Part shown: positions 57,937 to 64,000 of the stretch, piece by piece
Layout: every line of letters starts with the position of its first letter
Position numbering within the stretch: position 1 is the stretch's first letter
Assembly: GCA_035628995.1 (NCBI GenBank)
Contig: DASPIR010000023.1
Span: 1-64,000 of the forward strand
DNA length: 64,000 bases
Source of the DNA: Clostridia bacterium
GTDB taxonomy: Bacteria > Bacillota > Clostridia > Lutisporales > Lutisporaceae
Direction of reading: 5' to 3'
The notes under the pieces: model-generated
The model's input: only the letters and a program-made list of their open reading frames with translations
Told to the model about the DNA's origin: nothing
Databases searched by the model: none
Position numbers and translations under genes: made by a program

Positions 57937-59289
57937 ATGAAGAATGATATGTTCAGTCTTTTTGATATGAATAGAGAACAGGAAATGAAGAAGGAGAGTC
58001 CTCTGGCCATGAGGATGAGGCCGGAGACTCTTGAGGATTTTTTTGGACAGGAAGACATTGTGGCTCCGGGAAAGCTGCTTTATCGCGCTATTAAAGCAGA
58101 TAAGCTGACATCACTAATTTTTTTCGGACCTCCTGGTACTGGAAAGACAACTTTGGCGAAAATAATAGCAAATACCACCAAATCATATTTTGAACAGCTT
58201 AATGCTGTGACTTCGGGAGTAGCGGATATTCGCAGAGTGGTGGAGGAAGCAAAGAATCGCAAGGGTATGTACAGTCAGAGAACCATACTCTTTATAGATG
58301 AGATACACCGTTTTAATAAGTCTCAACAGGATGCAATGCTGCCATATGTCGAGGATGGTACAGTCATATTGATAGGAGCTACTACGGAAAATCCATACTA
58401 TGAGGTGAACGACGCCCTTATATCACGGTCTACTATTTTCAGGCTCAATTCACTTACAGAAGAAAATATAAAGAATTTAGTGAAAAAATGTGTGGCTGAT
58501 GAGAAGAAGGGACTTGGATCATACAATATTGTCATTACCGACGAAGCCATGACACACATTGCCAATATTGCGAATGGAGATGCAAGGGCTGCACTTAATG
58601 CTGTCGAGCTTGCAGCGCTCACAACAGAAAGAAGCAGTGACGGCAAGATACATATTGACTTGAAAGCTGCTGAGGAATGTATACAGCAGAGGGCTGTGAA
58701 CTATGAAAAGAAGGGTGAGAACCACTATGACACCATATCAGCCTTCATAAAGAGCATGAGAGGTTCCGATCCTGATGCAGTGCTGCATTACCTCGCCAAG
58801 ATGATTTATGCAGGTGAAGATCCCAAGTTCATTGCAAGAAGAATAATAATATGCTCATCTGAAGATGTCGGGAATGCAGACCCAAATGCATTGTCAGTAG
58901 CTACGGCAGCAGCTAATGCTGTTCAGATGATAGGTATGCCTGAAGCAAAGATTATTCTTTCACAAGCTGCCTTATATGTAGCATGTGCGCCGAAGAGCAA
59001 TTCAGCAGTGGTTGGAATTGATAAGGCTTTAAAGGATATAGAGGGCAAAAGGACTGGAGCAGTGCCGCTGCATCTAAGAAATGATGCTTTCAAGGGCGCA
59101 AAGGAGTGGGGCTACGGAATCGGGTACAAGTATCCTCATAACTTTGAGGGCAATTATGTGGAACAACAGTACCTGCCCGATGAAATCAAAGATGCCCAGT
59201 ACTATTTCCCATCAAACAATGGATATGAAAAGAAAGCTGGAGAGCTGCCAAAGATAAAAAAGAGAAAAGAAAAGGAGAATTCTATTTGA
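57937..59289 (+). CDS. rarA: Replication-associated recombination ATPase RarA (MgsA)
   Basis: 450 aa AAA+ clamp-loader-like ATPase. Walker A FFGPPGTGKTT near 66, Walker [12 protein letters not shown], sensor IGATTENPYYEVN, and C-terminal tetramerisation part (YKYPHNFEGNYVEQQYLPD). It acts at stalled replication forks. Its stop lies within a terminator shared with the convergent gene. Confidence 0.95.
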   Translation: MKNDMFSLFDMNREQEMKKESPLAMRMRPETLEDFFGQEDIVAPGKLLYRAIKADKLTSLIFFGPPGTGKTTLAKIIANTTKSYFEQLNAVTSGVADIRRVVEEAKNRKGMYSQRTILFIDEIHRFNKSQQDAMLPYVEDGTVILIGATTENPYYEVNDALISRSTIFRLNSLTEENIKNLVKKCVADEKKGLGSYNIVITDEAMTHIANIANGDARAALNAVELAALTTERSSDGKIHIDLKAAEECIQQRAVNYEKKGENHYDTISAFIKSMRGSDPDAVLHYLAKMIYAGEDPKFIARRIIICSSEDVGNADPNALSVATAAANAVQMIGMPEAKIILSQAALYVACAPKSNSAVVGIDKALKDIEGKRTGAVPLHLRNDAFKGAKEWGYGIGYKYPHNFEGNYVEQQYLPDEIKDAQYYFPSNNGYEKKAGELPKIKKRKEKENSI

Positions 59290-59312
59290 AGAATTCTCCT
59301 ATTTTTTTTATA
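59271..59312. terminator. Bidirectional terminator overlapping two stop codons
   Basis: AAAGGAGAATTC pairs with GAATTCTCCTA..., loop TATTTGAA, flanked by A-rich and T-rich tracts. It serves rarA (+) and the hypothetical gene (-), whose coding ends overlap by 8 nt. Confidence 0.8.
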
Positions 59313-60859
59313 AGGCTATTATTCTTTTCAGTGGTTTCGGCGCCAAGAGTGCCATTTCTCACAGATGCTTTCCTTGGCGCTATACCTGGATGAACATATG
59401 CTTGCTTTTCATTGCCTATGGTGACACCAATGGTTTTGTTTTCTTGGAGAATATCGCCTGACTCATTATTAGCTCCCGGCTTGCCAACAAAAGTAGTTAT
59501 GCTTTCCTGCTTCATAAGCAGACTGTCATAATTTGGAGTCTTCCCACTTTTCAGGAACTTTTCCTTGAAGTTGCTTTTCTTGAGCCTTGAGCCTTCGGAG
59601 TCACCATTTACTGCAGTCTTTGATTTTGCAGGAATCAGGTCTATTTGCTGCTCCTCTGCTGTATTCTGCACAAAGGTCTTGCTTTCCATGCTGTCTATCC
59701 TGCTATTAAGACATTTTACATTCTCACTAAGATCCTTAATTTCGCCTAGTATTTGCTTAAGATAGTCGCTCGTTTCATTGGTGGCTGCTGTCTGAAGCTT
59801 TTCCTTGGGCTTATCCTCTGTTATACTCTTGGAGGTGTGCTCAATGGGCCTGGAGATATTTAAGTTTTTATCGAGTATGAAGTAACCATTAGTAATAGAG
59901 ATGGAGCTTGAACTCCTTATGATTTTGATTATTTGCATATTTGTCTCTGCGGTTGCAGGCAAATCTATAGCTTTTCTCCATTTACCGGAAGAGTCATCAA
60001 AAGTATATTGATGAAATACATTATCCTTTACCCACGCAAGCTGCAGAGCTTTATCATCAGAGTAAAACAGAGGGATTATTCCGTTGGTATCGACACGACA
60101 ATTATTTAGTTCCTTAAAATCTGTTTCACCTGCACTTCCGGATTTGCTCAAGAAATGATATATGTTGCTTGCTTCCTGTTCAATAGAAAAACAGAGCAGG
60201 TTGATTTTTTTATTATGATGTATCAGCTTTATGAATACCTGGTTTTTGTATGAGATATTAAGGCTTTTCTGAAGCCAGGATTTTGTGGAATCGTCATAGC
60301 AGTAGTAGTTTATATAATAGTGAGTTCCATCGTACCAAACACTGGCATAATGTATTATGCCCCCCTTTGATGGAAGTAAGGAATAGGAGCTCTCTATATT
60401 TTGCGAGTATATTTCGGAAAGGCTGTTTTTCCTCCAGGCGTACTCTATAAAAGGAGTCTGCTCATTGATGGTTTTGTGAATGTGATACACGTTGTACATG
60501 TTGGCAACAGGCAGCTTCTTTGAAAAAAATATATGAATGGAACCATTCAGTACCAGCATATCCATAATATATATGTTGGAGCTGTTATGGAGAGTCACTA
60601 CCGGTTCGAACTTCCACCCATTGTTGGCATATATGAAAAGTAGAACCCCTTTGTACCTGCTATTGCAGGTAAGGTATATAGTGTCATCTGCATCTATTGC
60701 GGCGGTATAATCATTATTCGCTTGACTGATGAGTATAGTATCCTTTGTATCTCCGATGTCAGAGACCTCCCTGTAGTATATAGAGGAGTCCTTGTAATAA
60801 AAGAAATATCTGTTGCCTTTAGAATCTTCCAGTACTATTGATGGCTTTATATCTACCAT
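59282..60859 (-). CDS. Hypothetical 525-aa protein: propeller-like head, coiled coil, disordered tail
   Basis: The first ~340 residues show repeating Tyr/Trp-rich beta segments suggestive of a beta-propeller (YRFFYYKDSSIYYREV-like blades; YASVWYDGTHYYINYYCYDD; LQLAWVKDNVFHQYTFDD). Residues ~370-405 look coiled-coil (YLKQILGEIKDLSENVKCLN), then a low-complexity basic tail. No signal peptide, so it is likely cytoplasmic or spore-layer associated. The family was not recognised. ATG 60859 follows GAGGTGGTG; a GTG frame opening at 60883 is less likely. A hairpin with arms AAAAGGCTT/AAGCCTTTT lies at ~60957-61000 in the divergent spacer. Confidence 0.7.
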   Translation of the reverse strand: MVDIKPSIVLEDSKGNRYFFYYKDSSIYYREVSDIGDTKDTILISQANNDYTAAIDADDTIYLTCNSRYKGVLLFIYANNGWKFEPVVTLHNSSNIYIMDMLVLNGSIHIFFSKKLPVANMYNVYHIHKTINEQTPFIEYAWRKNSLSEIYSQNIESSYSLLPSKGGIIHYASVWYDGTHYYINYYCYDDSTKSWLQKSLNISYKNQVFIKLIHHNKKINLLCFSIEQEASNIYHFLSKSGSAGETDFKELNNCRVDTNGIIPLFYSDDKALQLAWVKDNVFHQYTFDDSSGKWRKAIDLPATAETNMQIIKIIRSSSSISITNGYFILDKNLNISRPIEHTSKSITEDKPKEKLQTAATNETSDYLKQILGEIKDLSENVKCLNSRIDSMESKTFVQNTAEEQQIDLIPAKSKTAVNGDSEGSRLKKSNFKEKFLKSGKTPNYDSLLMKQESITTFVGKPGANNESGDILQENKTIGVTIGNEKQAYVHPGIAPRKASVRNGTLGAETTEKNNSLIKKIGEFFK

Positions 60860-61084
60860 GCAATCACCACCTCGGAATTTCACATTTTATTTATATACAC
60901 TTCTATAAATTTATATGGGTTTGTTCAAGTTTATATGTTATTGCCATACGAAATAAAAAAGGCTTTTATTGAAAAATTTTAAAAAACAAGGAAGCCTTTT
61001 ATGAAACTCATTTACGGAAAGTGGCACACTAAGGAAATTTATACTTTCCTATTCGTTATAAAAAATATTTGTGTTAACTTGGTC

Positions 61085-61112
61085 ACAAAAATAATGGTAA
61101 TTCCATATTATA
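61085..61112 (+). promoter_or_regulatory. Candidate sporulation (sigma-K-like) promoter
   Basis: AC (61085-61086), 17 bp, then CATATTATA (61104-61112) fits the sigma-K pattern AC-N16/17-CATANNNTA. It lies 43 bp upstream of a Cys-rich protein gene. A short motif, so this is tentative. Confidence 0.35.
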
Positions 61113-61154: not shown

Positions 61155-61919
61155 ATGACAGTCCCAAATGTTTCATTACCAACGGTATTATGTACTGGAA
61201 CTACTAAGGTAGAAATATCCGTAGGTGGAAGAACTGAAAGCAAAGATTTGGTATTTGAATGTATTAAGGTTAAGAAAGTATTTGACGAATTTGTTCTGAG
61301 GGATTGCGTGGAAGGCATAAAGTTCAAAGTATGTGGGGAGCCTCATGGAGGAACTATAGAACCGACCTTGATACTGAGAAATTGTAAGCTTAGTAATGTT
61401 GAAATTAAGGATGTATCCACTAATGCAGATAAAAGACTTAAATTCTCGGCAAGATGCTGCTGTGACGTATTTGGAAAGGATAGCAGAGGGAAAATTATTA
61501 GACTCGAAGTAATCGATGTTCCTGAGGGAACTAATCTATCAGAGGGACCCAGTGGAGAACTTTGCTTTACATTTAGCGTTAGAAGAACATATCCCAATGT
61601 GACAGAAGAAAACTTTGAAAGACTGCTGCACTTCCTTGATCAAGGGAGATTTGAGCTGCAGTGTTTTGGAGAAGCAGTAATAGATGAGGAAAACAATACA
61701 ACAACTGGCGAAATACTCATTACCAACCTTGGTGCATTTATTGCAATAAAGTTTGACGCTGAAGTTCAGCTTTGTGTTCCTGTATTGGGATACTGCGCAA
61801 TAGAGGAAGATGTAGCACCTATAGACATTAACTTCTGCGAAGAATTCGAATTTGAGGATATTCCTTCGTTCAATCCTCCACAGCTCGGTGTTCCGACTCC
61901 TCCATACACAACTGGCTAG
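61155..61919 (+). CDS. Cysteine-rich beta protein, possible spore coat/exosporium protein
   Basis: 254 aa with no signal peptide, 13 cysteines including a CCC triplet (FSARCCCDVFGKD), mostly beta-type sequence with repeated acidic stretches and a Pro-rich end (FNPPQLGVPTPPYTTG). Two internal segments look related (KFKVCGEPHGG..., ELQCFGEAVIDEE). The composition and the sigma-K-like promoter suggest a late sporulation structural protein, but I do not recognise a named family. 9 bp upstream of the candidate selenoprotein frame. Confidence 0.65.
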   Translation: MTVPNVSLPTVLCTGTTKVEISVGGRTESKDLVFECIKVKKVFDEFVLRDCVEGIKFKVCGEPHGGTIEPTLILRNCKLSNVEIKDVSTNADKRLKFSARCCCDVFGKDSRGKIIRLEVIDVPEGTNLSEGPSGELCFTFSVRRTYPNVTEENFERLLHFLDQGRFELQCFGEAVIDEENNTTTGEILITNLGAFIAIKFDAEVQLCVPVLGYCAIEEDVAPIDINFCEEFEFEDIPSFNPPQLGVPTPPYTTG

Positions 61920-61928
61920 GAATTGATT

Positions 61929-62129
61929 ATGATAACAGAGGACATGACAATAAAGGAAATAATCAAGAAATATCCACATACAAAAATAGTCTTAAAACAA
62001 TATGACTTGCTTTCATCAGGCTGTGGCTGAGGGGGAGGTCAGTGTAGGACCCTTCGGCAGGCTGCCGAATCGAGAGGAATAGAATTGAACAAGATCATAA
62101 ATATAATAAATAACAAGATAAAGGGCTAG
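61929..62129 (+). CDS. Candidate selenoprotein: ScdA_N/DUF1858-like small redox protein with in-frame UGA
   Basis: 67 codons starting ATG 61929 (MITEDMTIKEIIKKYPHTKI) run to TAG 62127-62129 with one TGA at 62028-62030. Read as Sec (U34) the motif is SSGCG-U-GGGQCRTLRQAAE. The layout (acidic start, KYP, then Cys/Gly motif, then TLxxAAxxxGI and NKIINIIN) matches ScdA_N (DUF542) and DUF1858 domains, where a Cys occurs in the CC-GGG position. The codons after TGA stay in frame and family-like up to the terminator, so the TGA is probably decoded. A SECIS-like hairpin follows. Alternatives: a disrupted gene, or a sequencing error at a Cys/Trp codon. Likely co-transcribed with the upstream gene. Confidence 0.6.
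62031..62069 (+). promoter_or_regulatory. Candidate bacterial SECIS element
   Basis: Directly after the TGA, GGTC/GACC form a small hairpin (62037-62051). A stronger one, TTCGGCA (62053-62059) and TGCCGAA (62063-62069) with loop GGC, follows. Its apical loop starts ~30 nt after the UGA and begins with G, which fits the bacterial SECIS rule (loop 16-37 nt from UGA, G in the first loop positions). Confidence 0.5.
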
Positions 62130-62155
62130 TGTTTACTAGCTCTAATCTTTTTTTT
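62125..62155 (+). terminator. Terminator at the end of the candidate selenoprotein gene
   Basis: GCTAGT pairs with ACTAGC (loop GTTT) and is followed by TCTAATC and a long T-run. The full-length frame stops inside this hairpin, as expected for a gene that is translated to its end. Confidence 0.75.
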
Positions 62156-62244
62156 GTTTTTTTGAAGTAACTTGTCACAGCAGAAAAGCATATTCTGAAA
62201 TTAAGAATACATTTAACCGCTTAAAAAAGGAGGACGTATCTCGG

Positions 62245-63198
62245 ATGACACACTATTACTATACAGTTGCAAGTAAGGAATATACGTACAAAATATTGCT
62301 CTTATATAATTCAATGATGAGGCATGATAAGGATTTCAAGTTTTTTATAGTCTGCTTGCAAAGTGACAGCATTAAAATGTTTGAAAGTCTTGGACTTCAA
62401 AATGCAGTGCTGATAGATATTGAGGCTTTGGAGGCTTATGATGGGGAGCTTGCTGCAGTAAAGTATAAAAGGAGCATTAAGCAGTATGCATGGGCTGCAA
62501 AGCCTATAGCTGCCTTATATATACTGGAGCATCACAACGAGGTGGACCAAATAATCTGGCTTGACGGAGATATGGCATTTCTTTCAAGTCCTGAATCCAT
62601 TTACGAGGAGTGGGCGAACTACTCAGTACTGCTTACTGAAGAGAAATTTACCGGTAAATATGATTATATAAGCAGCATATATGGTTACTTCAATACTGGG
62701 TTTATGGGTTTCAGAAAAGATGAAAATTCAATTGAATGCTTGAAATACTTCAGAAACAAGCTGCTTTATGAATGGAATTATGAAGAAAAGGAGCAGTACA
62801 GATGGAACGACCAGCTTTATGTGAGTGATTGGGACAGTAGATTTACTAATACTGGAATAGTAAAAAGTCCAGGCATTAACCTTACCCCTTTTATTTTTAA
62901 CAGGCTGATAGAGGAATGGAACTGTGTGCTTACTGGAGAAGAGGGACAGCTTTACATCGGTGAAAACAGAATAGTGCTTTTCCATTTCTATGGTTTTAAA
63001 TACTTTAATGAGAAAGAATTTGATTTGTGTGGTTATACAAATATATACTACAAACCGCAGATACAGTATATTTACCTTCCATATATAAAAGAGGCGGTTT
63101 ATATAAATGGGAAACTAAGTGCAATAGATAAGAGCTTCTGCTGCACGCAGCCAACTGAGGGCAACTATATAAAGAATTACTACCGGCTTCCGGATTAG
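62245..63198 (+). CDS. Glycosyltransferase-like protein (GT-A fold, first of tandem pair)
   Basis: 317 aa. It opens with HYYYTVASKEYTYKILLLYN and has a DxD-type metal/sugar-nucleotide motif IIWLDGDMAFLSSPE near 110, then LLTEEKFTGKYDY and YFNTGFMGFRKDENS. These resemble GT8-like or related transferases with the DGD motif and the NTGFMGF loop. No membrane segment. The acceptor is unknown; in spore-formers such genes often glycosylate coat or surface proteins. ATG after AAGGAGG. Confidence 0.78.
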   Translation: MTHYYYTVASKEYTYKILLLYNSMMRHDKDFKFFIVCLQSDSIKMFESLGLQNAVLIDIEALEAYDGELAAVKYKRSIKQYAWAAKPIAALYILEHHNEVDQIIWLDGDMAFLSSPESIYEEWANYSVLLTEEKFTGKYDYISSIYGYFNTGFMGFRKDENSIECLKYFRNKLLYEWNYEEKEQYRWNDQLYVSDWDSRFTNTGIVKSPGINLTPFIFNRLIEEWNCVLTGEEGQLYIGENRIVLFHFYGFKYFNEKEFDLCGYTNIYYKPQIQYIYLPYIKEAVYINGKLSAIDKSFCCTQPTEGNYIKNYYRLPD

Positions 63199-63257
63199 GC
63201 TTTCAAAGTATCAACAGAAAATGTCCATAAAAATGCACACTGAAGGGGGCAAGTAAA

Positions 63258-64000
63258 TTGAGCCATAATTACTGTTCACTAGCTAGCAGGGATTATACCT
63301 ATAAGGTATTAGCACTATACAGATCAATACAAAAATATGATGAAGATTTTCACTTTTTTCTTATTTGCTTAAATGAGGAAGCTAAGGAGCTCTTCAGCGG
63401 GATGAATTTAGATAAAGCAAGTATTATAGGCATAGATAGCATTGAAGCTAAAGACTGGGAGCTCCTTGAAGTGAAAAGCGGGAGAAATGAGAAAGAGTAT
63501 GCCTGGACAGTAAAACCGTCTGTAATGCTATATCTGCTTGAAAGCTATCCGGAATTGGAGCATATTGTGTGGCTGGATGGGGACACAGCCTTTTTGTCAA
63601 ATCCTCAGCCAATATATGATGAATGGGGAGATTATTCCATATTACTGACTGAAGAGAAGTACTCCGGTAAATATGACTACATGAGCTGGCATTTTGGAGT
63701 GTATAATACAGGATTTTTGGGTTTTAAGAGGGATGATAACGCCATTAAATGTCTGAATTGGCTGAGGGGAAAGGTTATTGAATGGTGTTATGACAGGCAC
63801 GAGGAAGGCTTGTGGAGTGACCAAATGCATTTCAACAATCTTCCGAGCTTATTCAGTAATGTCGGTGTAGTTAGAAATGTAGGCATAAATATGACACCAT
63901 TTATACTCAATAGATTGTTGGATGAAGAGGGAGGTGACATCAAAAAAAGCTCTGGCGGTATATTTGTTAATGCATCTAAAGTTGTGTTTTTTCACTATTA
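63258..64000 (+). CDS. Glycosyltransferase-like protein (second of pair, cut by window end)
   Basis: Starts at TTG, 7-8 nt after GAAGGGGG, and is open to the window end (about 247 codons). It is a clear paralogue of the preceding gene: CSLASRDYTYKVLALYRSI, HIVWLDGDTAFLSNPQ, LLTEEKYSGKYDYM, YNTGFLGFKRDDNA. The DGD motif is conserved. Tandem duplication with divergence suggests different donors or acceptors. Confidence 0.78.
   Translation, partial: MSHNYCSLASRDYTYKVLALYRSIQKYDEDFHFFLICLNEEAKELFSGMNLDKASIIGIDSIEAKDWELLEVKSGRNEKEYAWTVKPSVMLYLLESYPELEHIVWLDGDTAFLSNPQPIYDEWGDYSILLTEEKYSGKYDYMSWHFGVYNTGFLGFKRDDNAIKCLNWLRGKVIEWCYDRHEEGLWSDQMHFNNLPSLFSNVGVVRNVGINMTPFILNRLLDEEGGDIKKSSGGIFVNASKVVFFHY

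Follow-up and report, generated by a model that had tools for sequence, protein, structure and literature searches.

A candidate CxU selenoprotein of the DUF1858 family beside a cysteine-rich partner gene in a clostridial genome

A short frame near the end of a 64,000-nt stretch of clostridial DNA (the whole of which we call the window) is interrupted by an in-frame TGA codon. The locus raises two questions: does the UGA end a small peptide or is it read as selenocysteine (Sec), and, if it is read, what would the resulting protein do? Both were addressed by computational analysis. All features lie on the forward strand unless stated otherwise.

Frame, domain and predicted fold

Direct reading of the 66-codon frame (61929–62129) bore out the original prediction: 33 codons run from ATG at 61929 and are followed by TGA (62028–62030), 32 sense codons and TAG (62127–62129), the last lying within an intrinsic terminator. 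With U at the TGA, the translation is MITEDMTIKEIIKKYPHTKIVLKQYDLLSSGCGUGGGQCRTLRQAAESRGIELNKIINIINNKIKG, a 66-aa protein in which the UGA corresponds to residue 34 of a C32-G33-U34 motif. Gene finders are likely to miss such a gene or to end it at codon 33.

The domain had been predicted to be of the ScdA_N/DUF1858 type, and the second half of that assignment held. The window protein is a DUF1858 member, matching Pfam PF08984 with 43.4 bits (gathering score 32.2), and the same family was assigned to all 17 of the 17 members of the CGU subfamily. ScdA_N (PF04405) reached 21.3 bits against a gathering score of 32.5 and is thus a sub-threshold relative. The match to TIGR03980 was nearly full-length, with 39.2 bits against a curated cut-off of 44.95, and this model was likewise matched by 17 of 17 subfamily members; no NCBIfam model names the CGU form of DUF1858. 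The predicted structure has the four-helix DUF1858 fold, with residues 32–36 as a flexible loop; this active loop is a low-confidence part of the model, scoring below 50. It resembled the DUF1858 structure 2K53 (TM 0.76, probability 0.97), with a Foldseek E of 0.44, as expected for such a small protein. Nine residues are invariant in the CGU subfamily (I2, P16, C32, G33, U34, G35, G36, Q44, and N61), among which C32 and U34 are the sole chalcogen residues.

Decoding of the UGA codon

Whole-genome searches found the orthologue in 18 of the 22 genomes of the host's taxonomic order. Coding continued through the UGA in all 18, each gene having exactly one TGA, at the Sec codon, and none having Cys there. 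Four public MAG records also contain the orthologue, again with one TGA each at the Sec codon. Cys homologues, a proposed check on the prediction, were found among DUF1858 relatives with CxxC, where the U column is occupied by the second Cys of CLSC, CLGC, CVGC or CFGC; there were none inside the CGU subgroup, and the matches listed from searches of 22 order-level, 391 class-level and 398 phylum-level genomes included no Cys version of the CGU form. Within the genus, dN/dS was 0.14 before the TGA and 0.21 after it, or 0.16 outside the hairpin described below. The value of about 0.2 after the TGA indicates that the codons past it are under purifying selection. A chance open frame past a stop was thereby ruled out, by the orthologues and the dN/dS values together.

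Family searches of the genome recovered the whole Sec machinery whose presence had been put forward as a check: selD, a tandem selA–selB pair and a tRNA-Sec gene (selC) with anticodon TCA. The selD gene also encodes a selenoprotein, having a UGA of its own (motif SSGUAAKIGP; L126 508–1611). Genome-wide recoding of TGA was considered and ruled out, as TGA also ends long frames and tRNA-Sec, SelA, SelB and SelD exist.

The hairpin predicted about 30 nt past the UGA proved real and fits the published bacterial SECIS (bSECIS) model. It spans 62052–62070, pairing 62052–62058 with 62064–62070 around the loop AGGCU (62059–62063), which lies 28 nt from the UGA; the folding energy of 62052–62073 is −8.9 kcal/mol. 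Published rules call for a loop of 3–9 nt, a stem of 4–16 bp, a G within the first two loop positions, a distance of 16–37 nt from the UGA and an MFE of at most −7.5, and the hairpin agrees with them in loop size, G position, spacing and energy. Across 17 sequences, five of the seven stem pairs showed compensatory changes on both sides. The covariation score was 0.528, which none of 500 shuffles reached (mean 0.217), and the covariation was lost when the partner strand was slid by 1, 2 or 3 positions. The stem reads CUUCGGC/GCCGAA in the host's genus, AUUCAAC/GUUGAAU in a second genus and AUAGAGC/GCUCUAU in a third, with AGGCU or AGGUU as the loop. All 18 genomes use CAG for the loop Gln, which is only mildly informative because CAG is the commoner Gln codon anyway (39 vs 18 in five window genes). 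The whole 63 nt after the UGA folds no better than shuffled sequence (z 0.28), so that its folding energy is uninformative; the case for a SECIS comes from the short stem and from how it covaries, not from regional folding energy.

With conserved TGA, selection past it, covarying hairpin, sel genes and Cys-containing relatives all in agreement, the UGA at 62028 is almost certainly decoded as Sec, as originally proposed. That it is a genuine stop behind a 33-aa peptide, or marks a decayed gene or a sequencing error, is very improbable: UGA does end seven of the 43 long frames in the window as a normal stop, but an identical TGA in 18 genomes, purifying selection beyond it, a covarying hairpin and a full Sec machinery stand against this.

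The c1 unit, its promoter and possible roles

Directly upstream of the selenoprotein gene lies c1 (61155–61919), encoding a 254-aa Cys-rich protein with 13 Cys; the selenoprotein start follows the c1 stop by 9 nt. This arrangement recurred in all 18 CGU loci, across six genera, while the genes further downstream changed. Over these loci c1 measures 236–261 aa, with 13–19 Cys in the other full-length copies and many invariant positions. It has no family assignment in Pfam or NCBIfam, and a fold search with a low-depth model gave no significant match. The c1 family carries the motif VKKVFDEFxLRxCVEG ... FNPxQ, and distant C-terminal relatives were seen across other Clostridia (L121–L123). The two genes are very probably co-transcribed. 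A terminator (62122–62143; 9-bp stem and T run, z −3.7), which contains the TAG stop, closes the two-gene unit. An Rfam scan gave sub-threshold matches only, the best being the Listeria sRNA rli56 over the terminator (62086–62173; 32.8 bits against a gathering score of 47), probably a chance match.

Two genomes of the family (G018, locus L119; G019, locus L120) hold c1 without a selenoprotein gene before the next gene, a pattern consistent with clean loss of the selenoprotein gene. Thus c1 is not strictly dependent on the selenoprotein, which suggests that the latter may help c1 rather than being required.

SigK and SigE promoters have a CATA-type −10 element in common. In C. difficile the two factors share the −10 and differ at the −35, where SigK has AC and SigE has ATA (PMC3789822). 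We searched for a SigK pattern consisting of a −35 AC, a spacer of 16–17 nt and a −10 CATANNNT(A), and found it upstream of c1 at 61085–61112, as AC-N17-CATATTATA. An AC-N16/17-CATANNNT box was present in 16 of the 16 loci with enough upstream DNA. Alignment showed CACAAAA followed by CATATTATA as the only strongly conserved block 5' of c1 besides the ribosome-binding site. Of 17 regions upstream of c1, 12 had the strict form of the box, ending in TA, where 1.7 would be expected, and the extended promoter string has a single occurrence in the whole host genome. The host also has sigK (360 bits against a cut-off of 298.65). From this good pattern evidence we infer that the unit is likely expressed under SigK in the mother cell, and a sporulation link of the selenoprotein is probable.

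Gene names in the neighbourhood were assigned by eye from translations. The order is rarA, c2, c1, the selenoprotein gene, a glycosyltransferase island, iscR, iscS, iscU, mnmA, and alaS. On the reverse strand, c2 (59282–60883) is divergent from c1 and encodes an unnamed 533-aa protein with no Pfam family above cut-off; it is co-conserved, being a neighbour in most loci. The glycosyltransferase/sugar-nucleotide island separates the selenoprotein gene from iscR and covers window positions 62245–63998 and L124 1–6172, to about 70.2 kb of the contig. Its first gene (62245–63198) is GT8-like (PF01501, E 0.014, below cut-off), and a second, weaker SigK-type box, AC-N17-CATATTCT, precedes it at 62170–62197; two relatives (L073, L074) have a box at the corresponding position, which makes three species in all. 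The operon context, comprising c1, the SigK-type promoter and the glycosyltransferase island, was overlooked in the original prediction and is the best clue to function.

On this basis we lean towards the following proposal. Directed by the hairpin at 62052–62070, the host's SelA, SelB, tRNA-Sec and SelD almost certainly insert Sec at UGA 62028, giving a four-helix domain with C32-G33-U34 on a flexible loop. The CxU pair would be expected to alternate between a selenol/thiol and a selenenylsulfide state. CGC peptides are small-molecule mimics of protein disulfide isomerase. Together with c1, the selenoprotein would be made late from the SigK-type promoter, in the sporulating mother cell, where it would make, break or reshuffle disulfides of c1 or of other Cys-rich spore-surface proteins; the adjacent glycosyltransferases may decorate those proteins. 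Given a Cys-rich partner and mother-cell timing, formation, reduction or reshuffling of disulfides in a spore-surface protein would be the simplest explanation. The steps differ in strength. A spore-surface role of c1, to which its promoter, Cys content and neighbours point, is fairly likely, with less behind it than SigK control; action on disulfides of c1 or of proteins like it, the hypothetical redox substrates, has somewhat less than an even chance. More tentative still is the narrow form of the idea, a sporulation-specific selenoprotein whose synthesis is restricted to the late mother cell by SigK control and which is dedicated to disulfides of its co-transcribed Cys-rich partner in the outer layers of the spore. 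If the promoter and the partner gene have been read correctly, selenium use would be tied to spore building, a link that we did not find in the titles and abstract excerpts of the papers retrieved on selenoproteins, spore coat and sporulation together; two of these name selenoproteins only among their references.

The main rival accepts the Sec and assigns the protein to iron-sulfur or di-iron/NO chemistry, as in the N-terminal domain of ScdA/YtfE, acting with the nearby isc genes and not with c1. The locus stands in front of iscR-iscS-iscU-mnmA, and elsewhere in the family there are genera with iscR-iscS directly behind the selenoprotein gene and no island between, so that an iron-sulfur role is also allowed. 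Sub-threshold similarities to ScdA_N, in 17 of 17 members, and to the ScdA structures 9r7j and 9j47, along with the YtfE N-domain among the weak fold matches point the same way. Yet the ScdA_N cut-off is missed and there is no hemerythrin-like di-iron domain; moreover, the selenoprotein gene has its own terminator and has the SigK-type promoter in common with c1. The order rarA-iscR-iscS-iscU-mnmA is common in clostridia, and the isc linkage may therefore be ancestral background. We regard this role as unlikely.

Less likely again, and likewise accepting the Sec, is a general role as a small redox carrier or a peroxide-detoxifying thiol protein, with the adjacency to c1 reflecting only inherited gene order. 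The host genome does contain two further DUF1858 Sec proteins, DUF1858/TIGR03980 carries the name "redox disulfide domain", and c1 persists without the selenoprotein in two genomes. However, the paralogues are separate forms, and adjacency to c1 is strict in 18 genomes while the downstream genes vary.

Comparison with known selenoproteins and related domains

The original prediction knew of no account of the family as a selenoprotein. For DUF1858 as a whole this needs correction, because a "DUF1858 domain-containing protein, pfam08984, CxxU" is already catalogued (PMC9312934; PMC13188914, Table 1), and to call the CGU form a new selenoprotein family would be wrong. The CxU form alone is unlisted there: neither Table 1 of PMC13188914 nor PMC9312934 has a CxU DUF1858 entry. 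The 2026 review PMC13188914 assigns a domain that occurs with another Sec motif to a separate subfamily; on that convention the CGU form of DUF1858 is an unlisted subfamily. It has the domain in common with the catalogued CxxU proteins (representative WP_012065717.1), as well as the architecture of a single small domain and a Sec that takes the place of the second Cys in CxxC. It differs in being CxU and not CxxU, with the partner Cys two residues before U and Gly replacing the first Cys, in its invariant CGUGG, in having turned up in a single clostridial family, and in its fixed position behind c1 and a SigK-type promoter. Among the sampled 391 class and 398 phylum genomes, matches above 80 bits came only from the host's clostridial family, the best match outside it scoring 61.7 bits.

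The wider relatives of the CGU form are less close. TIGR03980, the hybrid cluster protein-associated redox disulfide domain, matches the subfamily as given above, with the window protein under its cut-off; a literature search for prismane/TIGR03980 selenoproteins returned nothing. ScdA_N/DUF542, the N-terminal domain of the ScdA/YtfE/RIC iron-sulfur repair proteins, has a similar helical fold and a C-(x)-[CU]-G-G pattern, but it differs from the window protein in the cut-off and di-iron domain already noted, and a Sec form of ScdA_N is unlisted in PMC13188914. The CxU spacing itself also occurs in rhodanese form 3, UshA-like, Trx-like Sec.1 and ferredoxin-thioredoxin reductase selenoproteins (PMC13188914, Table 1), whose domains are unrelated.

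Closer to home, the two DUF1858 paralogues of the host genome are of the CxxU type, one with CLGU-P (G000:C2:11528–11686; L045) and one with CFGU-GG (G000:C10:109833–109991; L047), which makes the CGU form a third, separate form. Relatives of the CLGU paralogue carry Cys, as CLSC or CLGC. A DUF1858 gene in another Bacillota genome reads VGCUGG, with Cys immediately before U (CU), and was seen once (L138, G504:C126:4219–4392). Taken together, the CxxU, CxU and CU forms suggest that in DUF1858 proteins the Sec stays fixed while its partner Cys shifts in position.
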